Shown here piece by piece: positions 815 through 12,645 of a DNA stretch of 64,000 nt. The stretch covers positions 3,906,001 through 3,970,000 of the forward strand of contig NZ_CP135971.1 in NCBI RefSeq assembly GCF_032463525.1, given 5' to 3'. The translations under genes were made by a program, and so were the position numbers. Below the pieces are notes generated by a model. The model was not told the origin of the DNA. It made no database searches and was given only the letters and a program-made list of their open reading frames with translations. Source of the stretch: Pseudomonas sp. DTU_2021_1001937_2_SI_NGA_ILE_001. GTDB lineage: Bacteria > Pseudomonadota > Gammaproteobacteria > Pseudomonadales > Pseudomonadaceae. Each line of letters starts with the position of its first letter. Positions within the stretch are counted from its first letter, which is position 1.

Positions 815-1723
815 ATGCTTCATAAGCAGCTGATCCGACGGCTAGACTTGATCACCTTACAGCTCTTTGTGGCTGTGCACGAAGAAGGCACGCTGACGCG
901 AGCGTCTTCAAGGGAGGCTATTGCGGTCTCGGCCGCTAGTAAACGGTTGATGGAGCTCGAGGAGGCTTTAGGCGTTCCGCTTTACTCCCGTACAGCCAAA
1001 GGCATGGACCTTACTGCTGCTGGGGAGACGTTGCTACATCACGCTCGACGCATCCTCACTGAGGTGGAGAAGGTTGGAATTGAGGTGGGTGAGCACCTGC
1101 AAGGGCTCAGAGGCTATGTACGGATGCTTGCGAACCTCTCTGCGATCATCCAGTTCCTGCCCGAGGATCTGCACGATTTCGTGCTCAATCACTCTCAGGT
1201 AAAGGTGGATTTGGAAGAGCGCCCGAGCGATGGTGTCGTGCAGGGGATCATCGACGGTGTCGCCGATCTGGGTATTTGTTCGATGGACAGTGAGACCCAC
1301 GGTCTATACCGGGTGCCATATCGTCACGATCGACTGGTGGTAGTGACGCGCAGCGACCATCCACTCGCAGAGCGTGGGCAGGTCGCATTTGTTGAAACGC
1401 TGATGTACGACCACATTGGGCTGCACTCGGCCAGTTCGATCAATAATCGCATCCATGCTGCGGCGAAGGCTTTAGGACAACCCCTCCGTTTACGTATTCA
1501 TGTTCCTGGCTTCGACGCCGTGTGTCGCATGGTCCAGGCCGACATGGGCATAGGTATTTTGCCGTTTAAAGCATTCGAACTGTTTGGCCGAGGTCTGGGG
1601 TTGACAGCGGTGCAACTCAGCGACGAGTGGTCAGATCGAACCTTGGTTCTATTGGTGCGTGAGGGCGAAGCGCTATCGCCAGTCAGCCAACTGCTGTTCG
1701 ACCACCTGCAGCAGCCCCGCTAG
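815..1723 (+). CDS. LysR-family transcriptional regulator of the adjacent catabolic cluster
   Basis: A 302-residue LysR-type regulator. The winged HTH occupies roughly residues 10-70 (LQLFVAVHEEGTLTRAS, then LMELEEALGVPLYSR), followed by the effector-binding domain of LysR_substrate type (about 95-295). The ATG at 815 gives the normal family length and has GGGGA (807-811) just upstream; an in-frame start further upstream would add 38 residues without family character. It is transcribed in the same direction as the CoA-transferase gene 107 bp downstream rather than divergently. A palindromic T-N11-A motif lies in that gap. It probably senses the substrate or an intermediate of the pathway encoded at 1831-7650. 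Confidence 0.9.
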   Translation: MLHKQLIRRLDLITLQLFVAVHEEGTLTRASSREAIAVSAASKRLMELEEALGVPLYSRTAKGMDLTAAGETLLHHARRILTEVEKVGIEVGEHLQGLRGYVRMLANLSAIIQFLPEDLHDFVLNHSQVKVDLEERPSDGVVQGIIDGVADLGICSMDSETHGLYRVPYRHDRLVVVTRSDHPLAERGQVAFVETLMYDHIGLHSASSINNRIHAAAKALGQPLRLRIHVPGFDAVCRMVQADMGIGILPFKAFELFGRGLGLTAVQLSDEWSDRTLVLLVREGEALSPVSQLLFDHLQQPR

Positions 1724-1732
1724 CCTCGTCCG

Positions 1733-1747
1733 TTCGCGAAACGCGAA
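1733..1747. promoter_or_regulatory. Palindromic LysR-type box upstream of CoA-transferase gene
   Basis: TTCGCG-AAA-CGCGAA is a perfect dyad of six-base arms with a three-base centre. Within it T1734 and A1746 are separated by 11 bases, the T-N11-A spacing of LysR-family sites. It lies just after the LysR gene stop and 83 bp before the first structural gene. It lacks a T-tract, so it is unlikely to be a terminator. Confidence 0.45.
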
Positions 1748-1830
1748 AGCCACTTTCCGATATACCGTTGGAGTTTGTTCAACGTGAGCCCCTAGTCTTG
1801 GTGCAAATTCCAAGAAACAGAGGTTGCACC

Positions 1831-3021
1831 ATGACTGCTCTCAACGGACTTCGGGTGATCGAGATCGGTACGCTTATAGCGGCACCGTTTGCTGCCCGCA
1901 TGATGGCCGAGTTCGGCGCCGAGGTAATCAAGATCGAGTCCTTGGGACAGGGAGACCCTCTTCGTAAATGGCGAAAACTGCACGAGGGGACGTCGCTGTG
2001 GTGGTACCTGCAATCCAGGAACAAAAAGTCCATTGCATTGAACCTGAAGTCAGCGTCTGGCATTGCCATCGTCAAGCAATTGGTTGAAAGCGCCGATGTT
2101 CTGATCGAAAACCTGCGCCCTGGGGCGCTGGAGAAGTTAGGCATCGGTTGGGACGTGCTCCACGAGTTGAATCCGAAACTGACTTTGGTACGCATCTCGG
2201 GTTACGGCCAGTCGGGCCCTTACCGAGATCGCCCCGGTTTTGGTGCCATCGGTGAAGCCATGGGCGGAATCCGCTATACCACTGGTACACCCGGCATTCC
2301 ACCTGCCCGCGTAGGCGTAAGTCTGGGTGACTCGCTTGCCTCCATGCACGCCGTAATTGGTGCGCTCATGTCCGTATTGCGTGTCAAGACGGGGCAAGGT
2401 GACGGACAGGTGGTTGATGTATCTCTCGCAGAAAGCGTTTTCAACGTCATGGAAAGCTTGGTACCTGAATACGACATGCTTGGTCATGTCCGGGAACGTA
2501 GCGGAGGTGCTTTGCCTGGCATCGCGCCATCCAACACTTATCCGACGGTAGACAAAGCGTATGTTGTTATCGCAGGCAACAGCGATCCGATCTATAAGCG
2601 CTTGATGACTACGATTGGTCGGCCGGATCTCAGGGATGATCCCGCGTTTGAGCACAACGACGGTCGAGCGGCACAGTGCGAGCTGTTGGATGAGGCAATA
2701 ACTCAGTGGAGCTCCAAGCTGCCCATTGATGCCGTGCTTGAAGCCTTGGAAAAAGCCGAGGTTCCGGCAGGGCGCATCTACTCCGTAGCAGACATCGTGG
2801 CTGATCCACACTACCAAGCGCGCGACATGATTTTGAATGCGGCGCTGCCTGACGGAACTACGGTGAAAATGCCGGGCATCGTACCGAAGCTGTCGGACAC
2901 TCCAGGCTGTGTCAATTGGCAGGGGCCAAGCCTCGGCCAGCACACCCAGGTTGTTCTCGGTGATTTGGGATTGCCTGAAGAAACGATCCAACGTCTGAAG
3001 GATGAGGGAGTCGTGCAATGA
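1831..3021 (+). CDS. Class III (CaiB/BaiF) CoA-transferase
   Basis: A 396-residue member of the CaiB/BaiF family, which moves CoA between carboxylic acids through an aspartyl-CoA thioester. The N-terminal part reads GLRVIEIGTLIAAPFAARMM and EFGAEVIKIE, followed by NLRPGALEKLGIGWD, as in the family. The probable catalytic Asp is D196 in GQVVDVSLAES. The ATG at 1831 follows AGAGG (1819-1823). The gene overlaps the next one by ATGA (3018-3021), so translation is probably coupled. Next to an HMG-CoA-lyase-type enzyme, the natural role is to activate a hydroxy-dicarboxylic acid (citramalate- or 3-hydroxy-3-methylglutarate-like) using succinyl-CoA or acetyl-CoA. The actual substrate is not determined. 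Confidence 0.92.
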   Translation: MTALNGLRVIEIGTLIAAPFAARMMAEFGAEVIKIESLGQGDPLRKWRKLHEGTSLWWYLQSRNKKSIALNLKSASGIAIVKQLVESADVLIENLRPGALEKLGIGWDVLHELNPKLTLVRISGYGQSGPYRDRPGFGAIGEAMGGIRYTTGTPGIPPARVGVSLGDSLASMHAVIGALMSVLRVKTGQGDGQVVDVSLAESVFNVMESLVPEYDMLGHVRERSGGALPGIAPSNTYPTVDKAYVVIAGNSDPIYKRLMTTIGRPDLRDDPAFEHNDGRAAQCELLDEAITQWSSKLPIDAVLEALEKAEVPAGRIYSVADIVADPHYQARDMILNAALPDGTTVKMPGIVPKLSDTPGCVNWQGPSLGQHTQVVLGDLGLPEETIQRLKDEGVVQ

Positions 3022-3953
3022 TCACCGACTACTCCCAACGCCTCATCATCCAGGAGGTATCGCCTCGTGATGGTTTGCAGATCGAACCGGTCTGGGTCGA
3101 AACTGCAGACAAGATCAAGCTCATCAACGAGCTGTCCTTGAGTGGCTTCAGTCGGATTGAAGCCGGCTCATTTGTATCGCCGAAGGCAATTCCTGCTCTG
3201 CGCGATGGCGAAGCAGTATTTCAGGGAATAGAACGTCGACCCGGTGTGGTTTATGTGGCGCTTGTGCCGAATCTGAAAGGTGCCCAGCGAGCCCTGGCGT
3301 CCAAAGCTGATGAGTTGAACTTGGTGTTGTCAGCTAGCCAGAGCCACAATAAAGCCAATATGCGCATGACGCGGGAGCAGTCACTTGCTGCATTCAGCGA
3401 TGTCGTATCGCTCGTCCGGGGCACCCCAGTAACGTTGAATGGCACTGTGGCGACAACGTTTGGTTGCCCTTTCGAAGGCCGCATCGATGAAGATGTAGTC
3501 ATGCGCTTGATTGGCGCTTATCACGAGCTTGGAATGCAAGGTATTACGTTGGCCGACACAACGGGTATGGCAAATCCACGCCAAGTCTACCACCTTATAA
3601 AAAGAGTGCTGACTCAACTTCCCGCCTCACAGCTGACCTTGCATTTTCATAATACCCGGGGTCTTGGGCTGAGCAATGTGTTGGCTGCATACGAGGCAGG
3701 CGCTCGCCGATTCGATGCTTCGCTGGGTGGGCTGGGTGGCTGTCCTTTTGCGCCAGGTGCCTCAGGCAACATCTGCACGGAGGACCTGGCCAATCTTTGC
3801 GAAGAGGTCGGGATCGATACAGGAATTGATCTTCCACATTTGCTCACGTTGTCTCGCTCGCTGCCCTCCTTAGTGGGGCATGAGACGCCGGGGCAAGTGG
3901 CAAAAGCAGGCCGAAATTGCGACCTTCATCCGCTACCTCTAGGTAACGGCTGA
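3018..3953 (+). CDS. HMG-CoA lyase family (HMGL-like) acyl-CoA lyase
   Basis: A 311-residue TIM-barrel lyase of the hydroxymethylglutaryl-CoA lyase family. Visible features are the N-terminal metal site SPRDGLQ (D18), the H-F-H metal ligands (209-211) in LHFHNTRG, and the signature GLGGCPFAPGASGN with the catalytic Cys at about C242. All key residues are present, so it should cleave a 3-hydroxy-3-methyl-type acyl-CoA into acetyl-CoA and a keto acid. Leucine-pathway MvaB/LiuE normally sits with liuABCD genes. Here it is coupled by a 4-bp overlap to a CoA-transferase, which points to a distinct substrate such as a citramalyl-CoA- or HMG-like thioester. That specificity is inference. Confidence 0.9.
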   Translation: MITDYSQRLIIQEVSPRDGLQIEPVWVETADKIKLINELSLSGFSRIEAGSFVSPKAIPALRDGEAVFQGIERRPGVVYVALVPNLKGAQRALASKADELNLVLSASQSHNKANMRMTREQSLAAFSDVVSLVRGTPVTLNGTVATTFGCPFEGRIDEDVVMRLIGAYHELGMQGITLADTTGMANPRQVYHLIKRVLTQLPASQLTLHFHNTRGLGLSNVLAAYEAGARRFDASLGGLGGCPFAPGASGNICTEDLANLCEEVGIDTGIDLPHLLTLSRSLPSLVGHETPGQVAKAGRNCDLHPLPLGNG

Positions 3954-4036
3954 TACCTGCCAAAGCGAAACTGTCGCCAGCCAGACAACAAAAACAATTA
4001 GAGCATTCCCAAGGGACGCTCGCCTGGAGAAACTAA

Positions 4037-5368
4037 ATGTCTATTTCCGTTTCCGCTACTGATGACGGCATTCCTGTCACTTCAATCGACGAAAAAAAGT
4101 TAATATCGAAAGTAGCATGGCGCCTCATGCCATTGATTATGATCTGCTATCTCTTTGCGTTTTTTGACCGTATCAATATCAGTTTCGCGAAGTTTCAATT
4201 GCAGGCGGATCTTAGCCTCAGTGATACAGCCTACGGACTCGGCGCTGGCCTGTTTGTCGTGGGGTACGTCCTGTTTGAAGTTCCGAGCAACATGATGCTG
4301 TACAAAGTTGGAGCCAGACGCTGGATCGCCCGCATCATGATGTCCTGGGGACTTGCTACTGCGCTGATGGTCTTCGTCACAGCAGAGTGGCAATTTTACA
4401 TCTTGCGATTTCTGATCGGTGCCATGGAGGCGGGCTTTGCCCCTGGGGTGCTCTACTACCTCACTCTTTGGTTCCCGCAAAACTATCGTGGTCGAATCAC
4501 CTCCATGCTCTTCTTGGCGTCGGCGTTTGCAGGTCTCATCGGAGCACCCGTTTCCGGCTTGGTGTTAGGCCACATGGACGGATTGTTCGAGATGCGTGGC
4601 TGGCACTGGTTGTTTCTGCTCGGGGGACTTCCCTGCATCGCACTGGGTCTGGTCGTTCTGCTCACCCTGAAAGACCGCATCAGTGACGCCAACTGGTTGA
4701 GCTCGGATGAGAAGTCCTATCTCGCTAGCCGGATCGCGAGCCATGAATTGAACAAGCATGAAGGGTCTCTGCTGACGGCACTACGGCTTCCAGGATTTCT
4801 GATGCTGGCGTTGATCTACTTCCTGATCCAAGTAGCATCCTACGGTCTGAATTTCTGGGCTCCGCAGCTCATTCGTAGCGCCGGCATAGAAAGTGCGACA
4901 ACCATCGGGCTGCTGACCGCAGTGCCTTATGTGTGTGGGGCTATCAGTATGGTGGTAGTCGGTCGTTTGTCCGATGCCACGGGCGAGCGGAGAAAGTTTG
5001 TATGCGGCTTGGTCACCATCGGTTCTATTGGCTTCTTTAGTGCCGGTATTTTTGAGGCACATATTCTTTATCTCACCGTGGCGCTGGCACTCTTGGGTGC
5101 AGGTATTATCGCCTCTATCCCTACCTTCTGGTCACTCCCTCCTAAACTGCTTGCTGGCGCAGGGGCCGGAGCTGCTGCGGGGATTGCGCTCATCAATACG
5201 ATGGGACAGGTTGGCGGAATTGTGAGTCCTGTAATGGTGGGCTTTATTAAAGACGTTACTGGTAGCACCACCCCGGCGCTCTATTTGATTGGTGCTACCT
5301 GCCTGATTGCAGCGGCACTGTTGATCTGGGCATTGCCTGAGAGCTTGAGGAAGTTGGATAAAAACTGA
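4037..5368 (+). CDS. MFS transporter, anion:cation symporter (ACS) type
   Basis: A 443-residue major facilitator protein with about 12 membrane spans. The N-terminus reads WRLMPLIMICYLFAFFDRIN, with the ACS-family FFDRINISFAK motif before TM2. A cytoplasmic loop between TM6 and TM7 lies near residues 200-240. ACS carriers in Pseudomonas commonly bring in organic anions (phthalate, tartrate, glucarate, 4-hydroxyphenylacetate types) with protons. A ribosome binding site GGAGAAAC (4025-4032) precedes the ATG. It sits between the lyase gene and the LeuC/LeuD pair, so it probably imports the substrate of this pathway. Confidence 0.9.
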   Translation: MSISVSATDDGIPVTSIDEKKLISKVAWRLMPLIMICYLFAFFDRINISFAKFQLQADLSLSDTAYGLGAGLFVVGYVLFEVPSNMMLYKVGARRWIARIMMSWGLATALMVFVTAEWQFYILRFLIGAMEAGFAPGVLYYLTLWFPQNYRGRITSMLFLASAFAGLIGAPVSGLVLGHMDGLFEMRGWHWLFLLGGLPCIALGLVVLLTLKDRISDANWLSSDEKSYLASRIASHELNKHEGSLLTALRLPGFLMLALIYFLIQVASYGLNFWAPQLIRSAGIESATTIGLLTAVPYVCGAISMVVVGRLSDATGERRKFVCGLVTIGSIGFFSAGIFEAHILYLTVALALLGAGIIASIPTFWSLPPKLLAGAGAGAAAGIALINTMGQVGGIVSPVMVGFIKDVTGSTTPALYLIGATCLIAAALLIWALPESLRKLDKN

Positions 5369-5586
5369 GGACTTATACAGGCCTGGATGTCTCGAACACC
5401 CTCGGTAGATCCAAAGTAACCTCGGTATTAAATGTCATTAGGTACTTAAGAGGCCGTGCTCTATGAGCGTGCTCTCGGCTAAGTACTGCCCGCGTCCGCT
5501 TATCCGGTTCCGCTTTGCCCCATCCCCCCGCACAACGCAGGGTCAAAGTGGAGCCGGGTTCGCTGGCCCCTAATAAGAGAATTGCA
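5369..5586. other. 218-bp gap before the leuC-like gene
   Basis: No open reading frame of note and no clear terminator. The sequence is less GC-rich than its surroundings and could hold a separate promoter for the leuC-like/leuD-like pair. I cannot point to a convincing -35/-10 pair, and the LysR palindrome at 1733 is not repeated here. Confidence 0.3.
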
Positions 5587-6990
5587 ATGAGCCCGATTAC
5601 CCTTTTTGAGAAAATTTGGCGTCGTCATGCGGTTCTAGATACGGATGATGGCCAAACTCTGCTGTATATCGATTTGCAGCTGATCAATGAAGTAACAAGC
5701 CCCCAGGCATTCGATGCTCTGCGGATGAATGGACTCCGTCCATGGCGCGCAGATTCTGTGCTGGCCACTGCCGATCATAACGTTCCGACCAAGGATCGCC
5801 CCAAAGGCATCACGGACGACATTGCACGCCGCCAAGTCAATACGCTTGAGCGAAATTGCGCAGAATTCAACCTGACGCTTTTCGGTATGGACGATCACCG
5901 TCAAGGGATCCTTCATGTAATCGGGCCTGAACAGGGGCTTACGCTTCCTGGGATGTCGATCGTGTGCGGCGACTCTCACACCACAACCCATGGTGCCTTT
6001 GCTGCACTCGCTTTTGGAATTGGTACGTCGGAAATTGAGCACGTTCTGGCAACGCAATGTCTTTCGATTAGAAAGCTCAAAAGCATGCGTGTCACCATTG
6101 ATGGCAATCTTAATCCTTACATAACGTCAAAGGATCTCGCCTTAGCGCTGATCGGTAGCATGGGTACCGCCGGCGCTACCGGGTATGCCATTGAGTTTGC
6201 GGGCTCTACAGTCGAATCCATGTCTATGGAAGCGCGTATGACACTTTGCAACCTGGCAATCGAGGCCGGTGCGCGTTGTGCCATGGTGGCATTTGACGAC
6301 ACGACCGCAGCGTACATCCGAGGCAAGCCGATGGCACCGACGGGCCAGCGGTGGGACGATGCCGAGCGCTACTGGCGTACGCTGCGCAGCGATGCGGGGG
6401 CGGTGTTCGACGCAGAAATTCGCATGGAGGCGAGCTCGATCAGGCCGCACGTCACGTGGGGGACCTCTCCGGAAATGGTCACGAGTATCGACGGATGTGT
6501 GCCCTCTCCTCAGGAAGAGCTCGACCCGGTCAAGCGCCAAAGTATTGATCGGGCTTTAAAGTACATGAACCTGAAACCTGGCACGGCAATACGTGACATC
6601 TTTCTGGATAAGGTTTTCATTGGTTCCTGTACGAACTCTCGGATTGAAGATCTGCGCCTGGCCGCGTCCGTAGTCGCAGGCAAGAAGGTAGCCAAAAATA
6701 TTAAACAGGCACTTGTCGTTCCTGGCTCGGGCTTGATCAAAAAGCAGGCCGAGTCTGAGAGGCTTGATCGTATCTTCATCGATGCCGGCTTTGAGTGGCG
6801 GGACGCCGGATGCTCGATGTGTCTGGGAATGAACGAGGACCGGCTGACTGCCGGGGAGCGTTGTGCCTCGACCTCAAATCGAAATTTTGAAGGACGCCAA
6901 GGCCCAGGGGGGCGGACTCATCTTGTCAGCCCAGCAATGGCAGCTGCTGCCGCCATTGCAGGTCACTTTGTCGATATTGAAGAGGTATAA
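5587..6990 (+). CDS. leuC: LeuC-type hydro-lyase large subunit (3-isopropylmalate dehydratase family paralogue)
   Basis: A 467-residue aconitase-superfamily protein close to bacterial LeuC in length and motifs. It has [49 protein letters not shown], and the three cluster cysteines in GSCTNSR (C348) and CSMC (C409, C412) that bind the 4Fe-4S cluster. AAGAGA (5575-5580) precedes the ATG. The housekeeping leuCD of pseudomonads normally sits next to leuB and asd, so this pair beside a CoA-transferase and lyase is probably a catabolic paralogue. LeuCD enzymes also hydrate citraconate to citramalate, which would feed the neighbouring enzymes. The exact substrate is unproven. Confidence 0.88.
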
Positions 6991-6996
6991 GCCACT

Positions 6997-7650
6997 ATGC
7001 GCCCATTCACATATCTCAAAGGCAAGGTTGTTCCATTAGACCGCGCCAATGTGGACACTGACGCCATCTTGCCAAAGCAGTTTTTGATGATCATCGAGCG
7101 CAGCGGTTTTGGCCAGCACCTGTTCGATGAGTGGCGTTATCTGGATCATGGGGAGCCCTATCAGGACTGCTCTAAGAGGCCTCTTAATCTAAGCTTTCCA
7201 TTGAACCAGCCTCGTTTTGAGGGGGCTGAAATTTTGCTGGCTCGGGGCAACTTCGGTTGTGGTTCTAGCCGTGAACATGCACCGTGGGCTTTGCATGACT
7301 GGGGGATCAGGGCAATTATTGCCCCGAGTTTTGCTGAAATATTTTATGGAAATTGCTTCAAAAACGGGATTCTGCCAATCGTGCTTGACGAGGCTACTGT
7401 CGAAAAGCTGTTCGTCGCCGTTGAGCGCATGCCAGGCTACCAACTCTGGGTTGATCTTGAAACACAGTCGGTCATAGATGATCAGGGCCTCCGAGTTGAG
7501 TTTGATGTGGACCCGTTTCGAAAGCATTGCTTGCTTAATGGTTTGGACGAAGTCGGTATGACGTTGCTGAAGTCCAGCACCATCAGGGAGTTCGAGAAAG
7601 CTCGAATAGCATTGGAACCGTGGCTGTATGACAGACTCCAGCGACAGTAG
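6997..7650 (+). CDS. leuD: LeuD-type hydro-lyase small subunit
   Basis: A 217-residue swivel-domain subunit of the LeuC/LeuD heterodimer. Typical motifs are [12 protein letters not shown] near the N-terminus and [20 protein letters not shown], which holds the substrate-binding Ser-Ser-Arg, followed by [19 protein letters not shown]. It starts six bases after the leuC-like stop, with GAAGAGG (6979-6985) as ribosome binding site, so the two subunits are made together. It is the last gene of the cluster, and an 11-bp perfect inverted repeat follows at 7660-7699. Family assignment is firm; its use in a catabolic rather than a leucine role is inference. Confidence 0.88.
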
Positions 7651-7883: not shown

Positions 7884-9377
7884 CTACTGACTCGCCGGTC
7901 GATACTGCAACGCCTCGGCCAGGTGCCCGCGACTTATCTCTGCCTGCCGCTCAAGATCTGCCAGGGTGCGCGCCACCTTGAGCAAGCGGTGTGCGGCACG
8001 CAGCGACAGGTTGAGGCGTTCGCACGCGGTTTCCAGCCAGCTTTCGTCGGTTGGGGATAACTTGCAGTGCTGGCGCAGGCCGGGCAGGTCGAGAAAGGCG
8101 TTGGCACAGCCTTGGCGGCGCTGTTGCAGCTCGCGGGCTTCGGCGACCTTGGCGGCGGCGCTGGCGGTGGTTTCGCCACCGCCCGGCAAGGCCGAAAGGC
8201 TGGTGGCTTCGCGGGCCACGGTGAGGTGCAGGTCGATGCGGTCCAGCAGCGGCCCGGACAGCTTGTTGCGATAGCGTTGAATCTGTTCGGTGGAGCAGCG
8301 GCAGCGACCACTGGGCTCGCCGAGATAGCCACAAGGGCAGGGGTTCATCGCCGCCACCAGCTGGAACCGCGCCGGAAAGCGCACCCGGTCGCGGGCCCGC
8401 GACACCACGATATGACCCGACTCCAGCGGCTCGCGCAGCACTTCCAGTACCCGACGGTCGAACTCCGGCAACTCATCGAGAAACAATACGCCGTGATGCG
8501 CCAGGGTAATTTCTCCGGGTTGCGGGCGGCTGCCACCCCCCACCAGCGCCGGCCCGGACGCCGAATGGTGCGGTTGACGGAACGGTCGCAGCGGCCAACT
8601 GCTCAGCGGCACCTGGCTGGCGACCGAATGAATTGCCGCCACTTCCAGCGCTTCCTGTTCATCCAGCGGCGGCAGCAGGCCGGGCAGGCGGCTGGCCAGC
8701 AGGGTCTTGCCGGTGCCCGGCGGGCCGCTGAACAGCAGGTTGTGGCCTCCGGCTGCTGCCACCACCAGCGCCCGCTTGGCCGCCAGCTGGCCCTGCACTT
8801 CGCTGAGGTCCGGGTAGGGTTGGGCCTGGGGCAGCAGGCCGTTGGCGCGGTAGGGCGTCATGGGGGTCTGGCCGTTGAAATGGGCGACCAGCTCGCGCAG
8901 GTGATTCACCGCAATCACCGTCAGCCCCGACGCCAGGCAGGCTTCTTCGGCATTGGCGGCGGGTACGATCAAGGTGCGCTGTGCCTGGCGTGCCGCCAGC
9001 GCCGCCGGCAACACGCCCTGCACCGGGCGCAACGCGCCAGACAGTGCCAGCTCGCCCAGGCATTCGATGTCCTGCAGGGCCGTCAGCGGAATCTGCCCAT
9101 TGGCGCCAAGCAGGCCCAAGGCAATCGCCAGGTCGAAGCGCCCGCCGTCCTTGGGCAGGTCGGCGGGCGCCAGGTTGAGGGTGATGCGCCGGTCGGGGAA
9201 TTTCAGCCCGGAATTGACGATGGCACTGCGCACCCGGTCTTTGCTTTCCTTCACTGCACCTTCAGGCAGGCCCACCAGAGTGAGGGCCGGCAGGCCGTTG
9301 GCGAGGTGGGTTTCGACCGTGACGGCAGGCGCCTGCACCCCGACCTGGGCGCGGCTGTGGACGATGGCGAGGGACAT
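7884..9377 (-). CDS. comM: ComM/YifB-family magnesium-chelatase-like AAA+ ATPase
   Basis: A 497-residue protein. The N-terminal ChlI-like Lon-fold domain covers about residues 20-140, the AAA+ Mg-chelatase domain about 190-395 with Walker A GPPGTGKT (218-225) and Walker B VLFLDELPEF, and a C-terminal Mg_chelatase_C lid follows. ComM is a hexameric helicase that drives branch migration during natural transformation and other recombination. The ATG at 9377 gives the canonical start MSLAIVHSRAQVG; an upstream in-frame start would add 32 residues of low-quality sequence. By recalled gene order, comM in P. aeruginosa lies next to ubiK and glnK, but here about 11 kb of other genes intervene. Confidence 0.95.
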   Translation of the reverse strand: MSLAIVHSRAQVGVQAPAVTVETHLANGLPALTLVGLPEGAVKESKDRVRSAIVNSGLKFPDRRITLNLAPADLPKDGGRFDLAIALGLLGANGQIPLTALQDIECLGELALSGALRPVQGVLPAALAARQAQRTLIVPAANAEEACLASGLTVIAVNHLRELVAHFNGQTPMTPYRANGLLPQAQPYPDLSEVQGQLAAKRALVVAAAGGHNLLFSGPPGTGKTLLASRLPGLLPPLDEQEALEVAAIHSVASQVPLSSWPLRPFRQPHHSASGPALVGGGSRPQPGEITLAHHGVLFLDELPEFDRRVLEVLREPLESGHIVVSRARDRVRFPARFQLVAAMNPCPCGYLGEPSGRCRCSTEQIQRYRNKLSGPLLDRIDLHLTVAREATSLSALPGGGETTASAAAKVAEARELQQRRQGCANAFLDLPGLRQHCKLSPTDESWLETACERLNLSLRAAHRLLKVARTLADLERQAEISRGHLAEALQYRPASQ

Positions 9378-9749
9378 GGCAGCTTCTTCCTTGAAAGGGA
9401 CGAAGCGGCATCGTGAAGCATTGGCAAGGTGCGGGCGTGAGGGAATGGCTACAGGGTGTGAAAGCGACGGCAAGGCCGGTTCTTCAGGTCTGGACGGGCG
9501 CCACGCCGGGTTGCATGGGCGTGACCGGCTGCGGCGTTGTGGACTCGCCGCCGGGAATCTTCAGCGAAGCGTTGAAACTCTTCCGTTGCCCAGGGGATGT
9601 CTGGCGAAGGTCGTGCTGGATAACTTAAAGCGCATACCCCGTCCTTTCGTATCTTTCCGATGAAAACCACTTGGTCGGTCGTCCAGTCAATTCATCTGAG
9701 CATGCGGATCGATAACAGATGCCCACCACCGACCAGAGTGTTACCGATC
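9378..9749. other. 372-bp divergent intergenic region
   Basis: The region lies between comM (leftward) and the binding-protein gene at 9750 (rightward). No coding pattern with family character is seen on either strand. It should contain both promoters, but I cannot fix a convincing -35/-10 pair. Confidence 0.4.
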
Positions 9750-11559: not shown

Positions 11560-12645
11560 ATGAATCGACTCAAACGCTTTGCACTGTCTGCCATCATGTC
11601 AGGCCTGATGGCGACGGCCCAGGCGGCGGAACAGTATGACCTGCAGGTCGTGGCCCAATCAGATACGGCCGTATGGAACGCGGTCGCGGTGGATAACTCA
11701 GGCGCACTCTACGTATCAGGACCCAGATGGATGGGGTCACAAGGACCCTCTGTTTCGAAGCTTGACGGCAAGGGGCAACCACACCCGTTCCCTGATGCCC
11801 GGTGGAACAGTGAAGATCCCAAGATTCCCGCCCAACAGCGGTTCATCAACGTCAATGCCATGCGAGTGGATGATAAGCAGCGGCTTTGGATCGTCGATGC
11901 CGGAGTCACGGACTTTGGGGGCAAGGTTGTTCCTGGTGGGGCGAAGCTGGTGGTTGTTGACCTCGACAGTGGTCTGGTCGAGAAAGTCATACCCTTCGAG
12001 TCCAGCATCGCCCAGGCCGGTAGCTACATTGATGATGTCCGTCTTAATGGCGGCCACGCTTATCTGACAGATGCCGGCGTTCCCGGGATTATCGTGCTGG
12101 ATCTCGCAACACAAAAAGCTCGTCGAGTGCTTTCCAGCAGTCAGGCAGTGCGTGCTCCTGAAGACCGCGACATTATCGTAGGTGGCAAGGTACTACGGGC
12201 GCCTGATGGCCGCGCATTGCGGGTGCATGCGGATCCGCTCGAAGTTTCTAACGATGGAAAATGGCTTTACTTCGCGCCTCTGACAGGACCTTGGTACAAG
12301 ATCGAAACCCGCTGGTTGGATGACCCCAGCGTGGCGGAAGAGGCGCTCGCACAAAAAGTCGAATATTGGAAAGACCTTCCTCCTGTCGGAGGAACCGTGA
12401 TGGATAAAAGCGGTAACTTTTACTTCAGTGACCTGGCTCAAGACAGTGTGAAGCGTATCGCTCCGGATGGCGAGGTGCGAACCCTTGCGACTGACAAACG
12501 ACTGCACTGGGTGGATGCGCCAGCTTTTGATCGTCAAGGCAGGTTGTATCTTCCGGCCGCACAAGTTGACCGTGTCAGTCTGTTCAATAACGGCGCGTCT
12601 CAAGTGCAGCGCCCCCTCGAGATCTACCGACTGAATCTTGAGTGA
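11560..12645 (+). CDS. Secreted beta-propeller protein of MRJP/yellow (SMP-30-like) type
   Basis: A 361-residue protein with a Sec signal peptide (MNRLKRFALSAIMSGLMATA, likely cut after AQA at 22). The mature part has repeated propeller-like strands: WNAVAVDNSGALYVSGPRW, NAMRVDDKQRLWIVDAG, GGHAYLTDAGVPGIIVLD and GTVMDKSGNFYFSDL. These resemble bacterial major-royal-jelly/yellow-family proteins and, more loosely, gluconolactonase-type SMP-30 proteins. The reaction and substrate are unknown; periplasmic lactonase or binding roles are possible. AGGAG (11549-11553) precedes the ATG. It diverges from a LysR regulator and converges on an ABM monooxygenase gene. Confidence 0.75.
   Translation: MNRLKRFALSAIMSGLMATAQAAEQYDLQVVAQSDTAVWNAVAVDNSGALYVSGPRWMGSQGPSVSKLDGKGQPHPFPDARWNSEDPKIPAQQRFINVNAMRVDDKQRLWIVDAGVTDFGGKVVPGGAKLVVVDLDSGLVEKVIPFESSIAQAGSYIDDVRLNGGHAYLTDAGVPGIIVLDLATQKARRVLSSSQAVRAPEDRDIIVGGKVLRAPDGRALRVHADPLEVSNDGKWLYFAPLTGPWYKIETRWLDDPSVAEEALAQKVEYWKDLPPVGGTVMDKSGNFYFSDLAQDSVKRIAPDGEVRTLATDKRLHWVDAPAFDRQGRLYLPAAQVDRVSLFNNGASQVQRPLEIYRLNLE

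Follow-up and report, generated by a model that had tools for sequence, protein, structure and literature searches.

Six complete open reading frames (ORFs) between positions 815 and 7650 of a 64,000-nucleotide stretch of Pseudomonas sp. DTU_2021_1001937_2_SI_NGA_ILE_001 raise the question of which pathway, if any, they form, and whether the LeuCD pair among them belongs to it. The stretch, called the window below, covers positions 3906001-3970000 of the first of two contigs in a 5.66 Mb genome. All six genes lie on the forward strand and encode a LysR-family regulator, a class III CoA-transferase (CoAT), a lyase of the 3-hydroxy-3-methylglutaryl-CoA (HMG-CoA) lyase type (HMGL), a carrier of the major facilitator superfamily (MFS), and both subunits of a LeuCD hydro-lyase (Table 1). 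Using a comparative genomics approach, we identified a conserved four-gene core, LysR-CoAT-HMGL-MFS, to which LeuCD is an optional and rare addition. We propose a catabolic role for the cluster, as an operon for branched C5 dicarboxylates of the (R)-citramalate series that may have been acquired horizontally. We are fairly confident of the general chemistry, CoA activation and cleavage of a 2-substituted malate, and lean modestly towards the exact pathway described below. Citraconate, itaconate and related acids act as immune metabolites and serve as monomers for plastics.

Table 1. Features of the cluster, in window coordinates
Feature	Coordinates	Strand	Basis
LysR-family regulator, presumed regulator of the cluster	815..1723	+	Pfam HTH_1 and LysR_substrate; LysR in 12/12 close-clade loci
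Class III CoA-transferase (CoAT), proposed succinyl-CoA:(R)-citramalate CoA-transferase	1831..3021	+	PF02515; catalytic-type Asp; 31.5% identity to P. aeruginosa Ict
HMGL-type lyase, proposed (R)-citramalyl-CoA lyase (to acetyl-CoA and pyruvate)	3018..3953	+	PF00682, NF004283; 68% identity to 6NDS; clade apart from LiuE-like rows
MFS carrier, proposed dicarboxylate uptake	4037..5368	+	PF07690; adjoins the lyase in 26/30 orthologous loci
MFS-LeuC gap, 218 bases, no terminator-like site	5369..5586	+	consensus scan
Accessory LeuC, hydro-lyase large subunit, proposed citraconate hydratase	5587..6990	+	TIGR00170; 63% identity to the genome's other LeuC; 47-row accessory family
Accessory LeuD, hydro-lyase small subunit	6997..7650	+	TIGR00171; loop KQFLMII versus housekeeping-type KQFLKSI

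Gene content and the proposed pathway

Both Pfam and NCBIfam back the assigned family names. The CoAT matches CoA_transf_3 with 392.4 bits over residues 3-371 of 395, and its Asp167 (counting Met), which we take to be the catalytic residue of class III CoA-transferases, is present in all 82 aligned rows, including those of the window and of P. aeruginosa Ict. The lyase possesses the HMG-CoA lyase family domain (HMGL-like, 161 bits; NF004283, 334 bits against a cut-off of 246) together with the metal and catalytic residues R17, D18, H209, H211 and C242, which are invariant across 18 aligned sequences, the window's included. LeuC (717 bits against a cut-off of 560) and LeuD (261 bits against 116) pass the NCBIfam cut-offs of the isopropylmalate isomerase family, and LeuC retains C348, C409 and C412, presumably the cysteine pattern of its iron-sulphur cluster. 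The top NCBIfam matches of the MFS carrier, TIGR00893 and HpaX, each score below their own cut-offs. The start of the HMGL gene overlaps the stop of the CoAT gene by 4 bases, and 6 bases separate leuC from leuD. An earlier reading of this DNA from its letters alone (the sequence-only reading) had described six genes on one strand with D18, H209, H211 and C242 intact, and the ORFs, the profile matches and the 18-sequence alignment agree with it. It had also held that the classical itaconate enzymes are absent from the cluster. Indeed, neither Ich nor a CitE-type Ccl occurs among the six genes by Pfam and NCBIfam, the search for Ich being confined to these genes. For Ccl the whole genome gave no good match: the best hit to the P. 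aeruginosa (S)-citramalyl-CoA lyase has 32% identity (E 1.4e-4), while the same query finds 71% and 75% identical proteins in two genomes of another genus of the same family, G859 and G819.

In the proposed pathway, the MFS carrier would import citraconate, (R)-citramalate or erythro-3-methylmalate, and LeuCD would interconvert the three, yielding (R)-citramalate. The CoAT would then form (R)-citramalyl-CoA from (R)-citramalate and succinyl-CoA, and the lyase would cleave it to acetyl-CoA and pyruvate. LysR would turn on the genes of the cluster, which may be co-transcribed.

The assignment to the (R) series follows from the stereochemistry of known lyases. According to the part of PMC6689899 available to us, PA0883 is specific for (R)-HMG-CoA and PA2011 for (S)-HMG-CoA, TIM-barrel HMG-CoA lyases are (S)-specific, and Rv2498c cleaves (S)-citramalyl-CoA and (R)-HMG-CoA. 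By Cahn-Ingold-Prelog (CIP) reasoning, (S)-citramalyl-CoA is the spatial counterpart of (R)-HMG-CoA, and therefore an HMGL fold that takes (S)-HMG-CoA should suit (R)-citramalyl-CoA. LeuCD-type enzymes act on (R)-2-methylmalate, and one source names LeuC relatives 3-isopropylmalate/(R)-2-methylmalate dehydratase. P. putida equipped with itaconate genes does not use (R)-citramalate or citraconate (PMC9875883, available part). Because the stereochemistry of the fold should fit the (R) series and the itaconate genes leave these two acids unused, the cluster would be the expected mirror-image complement of the (S)-specific itaconate route. If this is true, it provides candidate genes for the use of citraconate and (R)-citramalate, which the P. 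aeruginosa itaconate genes do not cover (PMC9875883, available part), as well as a function for a lyase that is called HMG-CoA lyase in databases and is found in a third of the sampled Pseudomonas genomes.

The genomic context points to the same class of substrates. Seven itaconate-operon genes (Ich, Mcd, RdoPA, MmgE, Ict, Ccl and DctP at loci L237 and L238) are found in G859 and G819 at distances of 0.1 and 1.4 kb from the CoAT-HMGL pair. Their products are 71-93% identical to the P. aeruginosa proteins; a DctM query gave no match at these two loci. A LysR gene and a second DctP-type gene are also present there. In both genomes LeuCD, at 78%/71% identity to the window's LeuC/LeuD, follows a transporter, which in G859 has MatC_N and CitMHS domains. 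Combined with the ligand of the nearest solved structure (see below), the itaconate-gene context indicates branched C5 hydroxy-diacids. The citramalate- or HMG-like substrate of the sequence-only reading is thus narrowed to the former kind, HMG and 3-methylglutaconate being poor candidates.

In a midpoint-rooted tree, the window lyase falls into a clade of 93 rows that stands apart from 8 other HMGL-family rows, the genome's own LiuE among them (support 100/99), and does not group with LiuE-like sequences. Compared with these 8 rows, which are mostly LiuE-like, its close clade has N141 for Arg, N212 for Asp and R214 for Tyr, among other differences; R214 is not distinctive, because the B. subtilis HMG-CoA lyase 1YDO also has Arg at this position. 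The close clade and its sister branch differ at L20/F, G50/T, A145/S, A179/C and F244/Y. In the lyase model (mean pLDDT 89.3), residues 50, 145 and 179 are placed at or near the ends of strands 46-51, 139-145 and 175-179, and residues 20 and 244 each lie two positions after a catalytic residue, D18 and C242, respectively. TIM barrels bind their substrates at strand ends. In the literature, the available part of PMC4213383 mentions accumulation of HMG in A. baylyi and a putative lyase, ACIAD2820, and that of PMC5757984 deals with MvaB beside leucine-catabolism genes.

Among solved structures the nearest is 6NDS from Acinetobacter baumannii, whose title gives it as a complex with coenzyme A and 3-methylmalate. 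It supports a route in which LeuCD would convert citraconate to erythro-3-methylmalate, the CoAT would form 3-methylmalyl-CoA, and the lyase would release propionyl-CoA and glyoxylate. 3-Methylmalate and citramalate are isomers, and the former may have been placed in the structure on the basis of density alone. Moreover, the dehydrogenase, GarR-type and glycerate-kinase-type genes of the sister branch fit hydroxypyruvate from an acetyl-CoA-forming lyase better than glyoxylate, and we consider the 3-methylmalate route unlikely.

Conserved core and the optional LeuCD pair

Orthologs of the lyase (E <= 1e-120) were identified in 134 of the 398 Pseudomonas genomes of the genus sample (the window's own included), with a lowest identity of 76%. 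Within 1.5-kb flanks of the best 30 of these 134 loci (window included), a CoAT gene adjoins the lyase gene in all 30 and an MFS gene in 26. The close clade consists of 12 loci, 11 from the lyase-relative set and the plasmid locus L157, and each of them possesses LysR, CoAT and MFS genes. Based on these presence counts, the four genes form the core and LeuCD is accessory. The grouping goes beyond chance, given how regularly CoAT and MFS flank the lyase and given that LeuCD adjoins CoAT-HMGL elsewhere with other LeuC lineages. One close relative, L007, carries a window-type LeuCD (92%/87% identical) in the same gene order, and L017 has a divergent LeuCD (57%/47%) on the opposite strand, some 2 kb upstream of LysR.

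The window's LeuCD and HMGL are not the leucine copies, because the genome contains a further leuCD locus as well as a LiuE of its own, the latter in a separate liu-type operon identified by reading ORFs. The second LeuCD (LeuC 63% and LeuD 61% identical to the window's) has the context LysR / leuC-leuD ... asd, an order similar to the leuC-leuD-leuB-asd annotated in a P. aeruginosa record; the expected place of leuB is covered by a reverse-strand frame from the gene finder, and leuB itself was not demonstrated there. After the window's leuD the next gene is ComM-like, on the other strand, and not leuB (read from the ORF). A role of the window's pair as leucine-pathway genes, which the sequence-only reading had named as one of two findings that would refute its proposal, is ruled out by this second locus with asd nearby: the pair is neither the sole copy nor part of a leu operon. 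A quick tree places the LeuC of the window in a 47-row accessory family (SH-aLRT 98), from which the Pseudomonas housekeeping-type clade is excluded.

A LeuC at E <= 1e-202 was found in 23 of the 398 genus-sample genomes, and the best identity apart from the window's own is 71% in the genus, 67% in the phylum, 71% in the relatives and 79% in the family sample, these samples overlapping; the best 120 of 7436 protein-database relatives reach 93%, as Pseudomonas and Stutzerimonas protein entries. LeuCD as an obligate member of the cluster is therefore unsupported, given these best identities in the four samples.

The LeuCD pair nevertheless adjoins CoAT-HMGL in other lineages. Another Pseudomonas (G138) has a CoAT-HMGL-LeuC-LeuD tandem with identities of 62%, 58%, 71% and 64% to the window's proteins, and plasmid pBB2 of C. 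necator N-1 is annotated with LysR, CaiB, HMG-CoA lyase, leuC, leuD and a TctC-type receptor (HMGL 60% and LeuC 66% identical). Both loci were found through their LeuC and thus give no frequency. Their LeuC proteins fall outside the accessory family of the window and their lyases form a separate branch (support 99/96), so on the simplest reading LeuCD appears to have joined the CoAT-HMGL pair at least twice. The co-occurrence anticipated by the sequence-only reading is borne out by these two tandems, but it is rare.

Among 526 plasmid records with a LeuC-like match, the four opened gave the pBB2 cluster, a locus on the C. metallidurans CH34 megaplasmid, the unannotated locus L155 and one leu operon. 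The CH34 locus (L154:8240-11045) keeps LeuCD and TctC, its CoAT match spans residues 3-219 only, and no HMGL match was found there, making it an apparent remnant; it was left out of the neighbour counts. A Comamonadaceae locus (L023) was dropped as support, its LeuC being placed among ordinary LeuC sequences in the tree. Two further contexts of LeuCD were observed. At L149 and L151 (genomes G312 and G010) LeuCD (LeuC 65-66% identical) lies between two LysR genes with no CoAT-HMGL in the stretch, and L151 further contains an MFS gene with 47% identity to that of the window. At L145 and L146 (G105 and G201) it adjoins GMC-type oxidoreductase, aldehyde dehydrogenase-like, FAD monooxygenase-like and IclR-like genes (ORF readings), perhaps another accessory use of LeuCD.

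Several observations weigh against the proposed pathway, most of them against the part assigned to LeuCD. The pair is present in the fetched flanks of just 2 of the 12 close-clade loci, and LeuC with LeuD in those of 3 of the 77 further loci described in the next section, two of which were chosen for their LeuC. Among 44 other LeuC loci in the genus and phylum samples, only that of G138 has HMGL or CoAT within 1.5 kb, a flank that would miss even the window's own lyase, beyond its MFS gene. By coordinates, the lyase ortholog and LeuC are never near each other in the six other genus-sample genomes that have both above threshold (G018, G059, G101, G146, G312 and G343); eight more plasmid loci, opened because of their lyase, have neither leuC nor leuD annotated; and in G859 and G819 LeuCD lies on a different contig from CoAT-HMGL. 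The LeuD loop is of the housekeeping type in G138 and C. necator, and the KSI form occurs in L144, L153 and L154. In the window itself, 218 bases part the MFS gene from leuC. As for the lyase, 6NDS carries the name HMG-CoA lyase and was modelled with 3-methylmalate instead of citramalate, and we know of no measured activity for any enzyme of this clade. The order of hydration, CoA activation and cleavage given in the sequence-only reading is coherent chemically and stereochemically, but its first step lies outside the conserved core. In outline, the evidence supports the pathway idea, with LeuCD as an optional module for citraconate entry.

LeuC and LeuD score well over the leucine-pathway cut-offs, and by CIP reasoning the natural stereochemistry of 2-isopropylmalate matches that of (R)-citramalate. 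The cluster might hence use 2-isopropylmalate or a larger 2-alkylmalate, LeuCD recycling the 3-isomer and the lyase releasing acetyl-CoA and 2-oxoisovalerate, a scavenging reversal of LeuA. We find this improbable, since the itaconate-operon genes near the pair in two genomes and the 3-methylmalate ligand indicate C5 acids. In addition, the LeuD loop is KQFLMII in the window, L007, L224 and L225, unlike the KQFLKSI of all 8 aligned Pseudomonas copies labelled housekeeping-type; this loop presumably has a role in substrate choice, as in archaeal relatives.

The absence of LeuCD near most relatives and the 218-base gap would also be expected if the pair were a recent chance neighbour and the cluster used a ready-made hydroxy-diacid brought in by the MFS carrier. 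To this we assign little probability: LeuCD adjoins CoAT-HMGL elsewhere with other LeuC lineages, and in the window it is on the same strand, has an equally low GC content, is separated by no terminator-like site (consensus scan of the gap) and occurs in the same order as in L007.

The GC content of the cluster is 54.3% versus 62.0% for the whole window. In 1-kb steps, a block of 53-57% starts about 1 kb ahead of the window and extends to roughly 8 kb; values of 62-69% follow at 8-10 kb, and the GC content drops back to 55-57% at 10-12 kb. This low-GC block suggests horizontal acquisition, without proof. It ends near the ComM-like gene (7884-9473, name read from the ORF). Further along, positions 11560-12645 encode a bacterial protein with a major royal jelly protein (MRJP) domain (PF03022, 77 bits).

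A candidate itatartarate pathway in the sister branch

The sister and further set comprises 77 loci, 69 from the lyase-relative set and 8 hand-picked (L144, L153, L158, L159, L160, L164, L237 and L238), some of them cut by contig ends. Neighbours were scored at E <= 1e-10 at any distance and on either strand. The most common are CoAT (71 loci), LysR (60) and a 130-residue glyoxalase-fold protein or RdoPA (53), followed by a D-2-hydroxyacid dehydrogenase or GarR-type protein (47, in 40 of them together with the lactonase homolog) and a glycerate-kinase-type protein (5); LeuC was found in 4 loci and LeuD in 3. The lactonase homolog, that is, the glyoxalase-fold protein, is missing from 24 of the 77. 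Over 129 residues it shares 58.9% identity with the VOC protein encoded in the P. aeruginosa itaconate operon; judged by gene order, this VOC protein is PA0880/RdoPA. In the available part of PMC9875883, RdoPA is a 2-hydroxyparaconate lactonase, 59.7% identical to fungal Rdo1, and itatartarate is reported as a dead end for P. aeruginosa as well as for engineered P. putida.

Such partners, a lactonase and dehydrogenases, are what a hydroxypyruvate-releasing itatartaryl-CoA lyase would need, which argues for cleavage of 2-hydroxy-2-carboxy acyl-CoAs by this clade, with acetyl-CoA and a 2-oxo acid as products. We predict that the sister branch is a candidate 2-hydroxyparaconate/itatartarate pathway, the substrates of its kinase and dehydrogenases being putative. 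If true, it would explain a possible fate of itatartarate beyond the dead end reported in PMC9875883 (available part). More broadly, and only tentatively, the HMGL-type lyases with their partner CoATs may together form a whole family acting on 2-substituted malyl-CoAs. The first branch, in some cases with LeuCD, would degrade citraconate, (R)-citramalate and 3-methylmalate; the other, with the lactonase and hydroxypyruvate reductases, would convert fungal 2-hydroxyparaconate and itatartarate, by way of itatartaryl-CoA, into acetyl-CoA and hydroxypyruvate. No mention of hydroxypyruvate was found in the itatartarate papers covered by the literature search.

Among the sister clusters, L018-L086 (e.g. 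L022, L037 and L061) and L164 often contain an RdoPA-type homolog, a D-2-hydroxyacid dehydrogenase and dicarboxylate transporters, and sometimes a glycerate-kinase-type gene. On Shinella and Ponticoccus plasmids (L161, L162 and L163, kept in the lyase tree and, having no CoAT match, left out of the neighbour counts), an HMGL-clade gene adjoins genes for a TRAP transporter and for aldehyde and iron-containing alcohol dehydrogenases, and the annotation of these stretches includes no CoA-transferase.

Given these sister CoAT-HMGL clusters, the window itself might serve itatartarate catabolism, its lyase releasing hydroxypyruvate. This is very unlikely: neither the lactonase homolog nor 2-hydroxyacid dehydrogenases occur in the fetched flanks of any of the 12 close-clade loci, and the window genome has no match to the 2-hydroxyparaconate lactonase at E <= 1e-15. 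Use of 3-hydroxy-3-methylglutarate by a CoA-transferase and a true HMG-CoA lyase releasing acetoacetate, as the NCBIfam name of the lyase (hydroxymethylglutaryl-CoA lyase, over its cut-off) would have it, was rejected as highly improbable on account of the separate LiuE, of N141 and N212, which differ from the LiuE-like rows (Arg and Asp) at positions fixed within each group, of LeuCD, which has no place in that route, and of the C5 ligand of 6NDS.

Comparison with known systems

The interpretation of the sequence-only reading is thus partly supported, narrowed to the (R)-citramalate series with LeuCD optional. Its claim of an undescribed pathway holds for the gene set, which as a catabolic pathway looks undescribed, but not for the CoA-transfer and lyase reactions, which are already described. 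Full-text literature searches, covering titles and the starts of abstracts with little subscription work, found no citraconate pathway of LeuCD, CoA-transferase and HMGL-type lyase, and no bacterial itatartarate pathway; nothing was found in full text on an R-citramalyl-CoA lyase with Chloroflexus or on citramalyl-CoA with HMG lyase. The available part of PMC12290011 contains no LeuCD or HMG lyase.

The window lyase differs from the HMG-CoA lyases LiuE and HMGCL (36-42% identity) in its separate clade and in its residues at strand ends. LeuCD of the leucine pathway belongs to the same protein family as the window's pair, which passes the curated cut-offs and is 63%/61% identical to the genome's other copy, but the window's pair is distinguished by the accessory LeuC clade, the KQFLMII loop of LeuD and the lack of leuB after it. 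The P. aeruginosa itaconate operon PA0878-PA0886 (Ich, Mcd, RdoPA, MmgE, Ict, Ccl and TRAP) resembles the cluster in combining a CaiB-type CoAT with a lyase and in leading from citramalyl-CoA to acetyl-CoA and pyruvate. However, its lyase is a CitE-type CoA ester lyase, it follows an (S)-specific route with activation of itaconate preceding hydration, and its Ict is only 31.5% identical to the window's CoAT.

The closest likeness in reactions is to the enzymes EC 2.8.3.20 and EC 4.1.3.46, which we take to be those known from Chloroflexus, where they occur without LeuCD and MFS and the lyase is of the HMGL family. The same two reactions that we propose for the CoAT and the lyase are listed under these numbers for (R)-citramalate in a table of PMC8307300 (available part), a likeness drawn by reaction and not by sequence.

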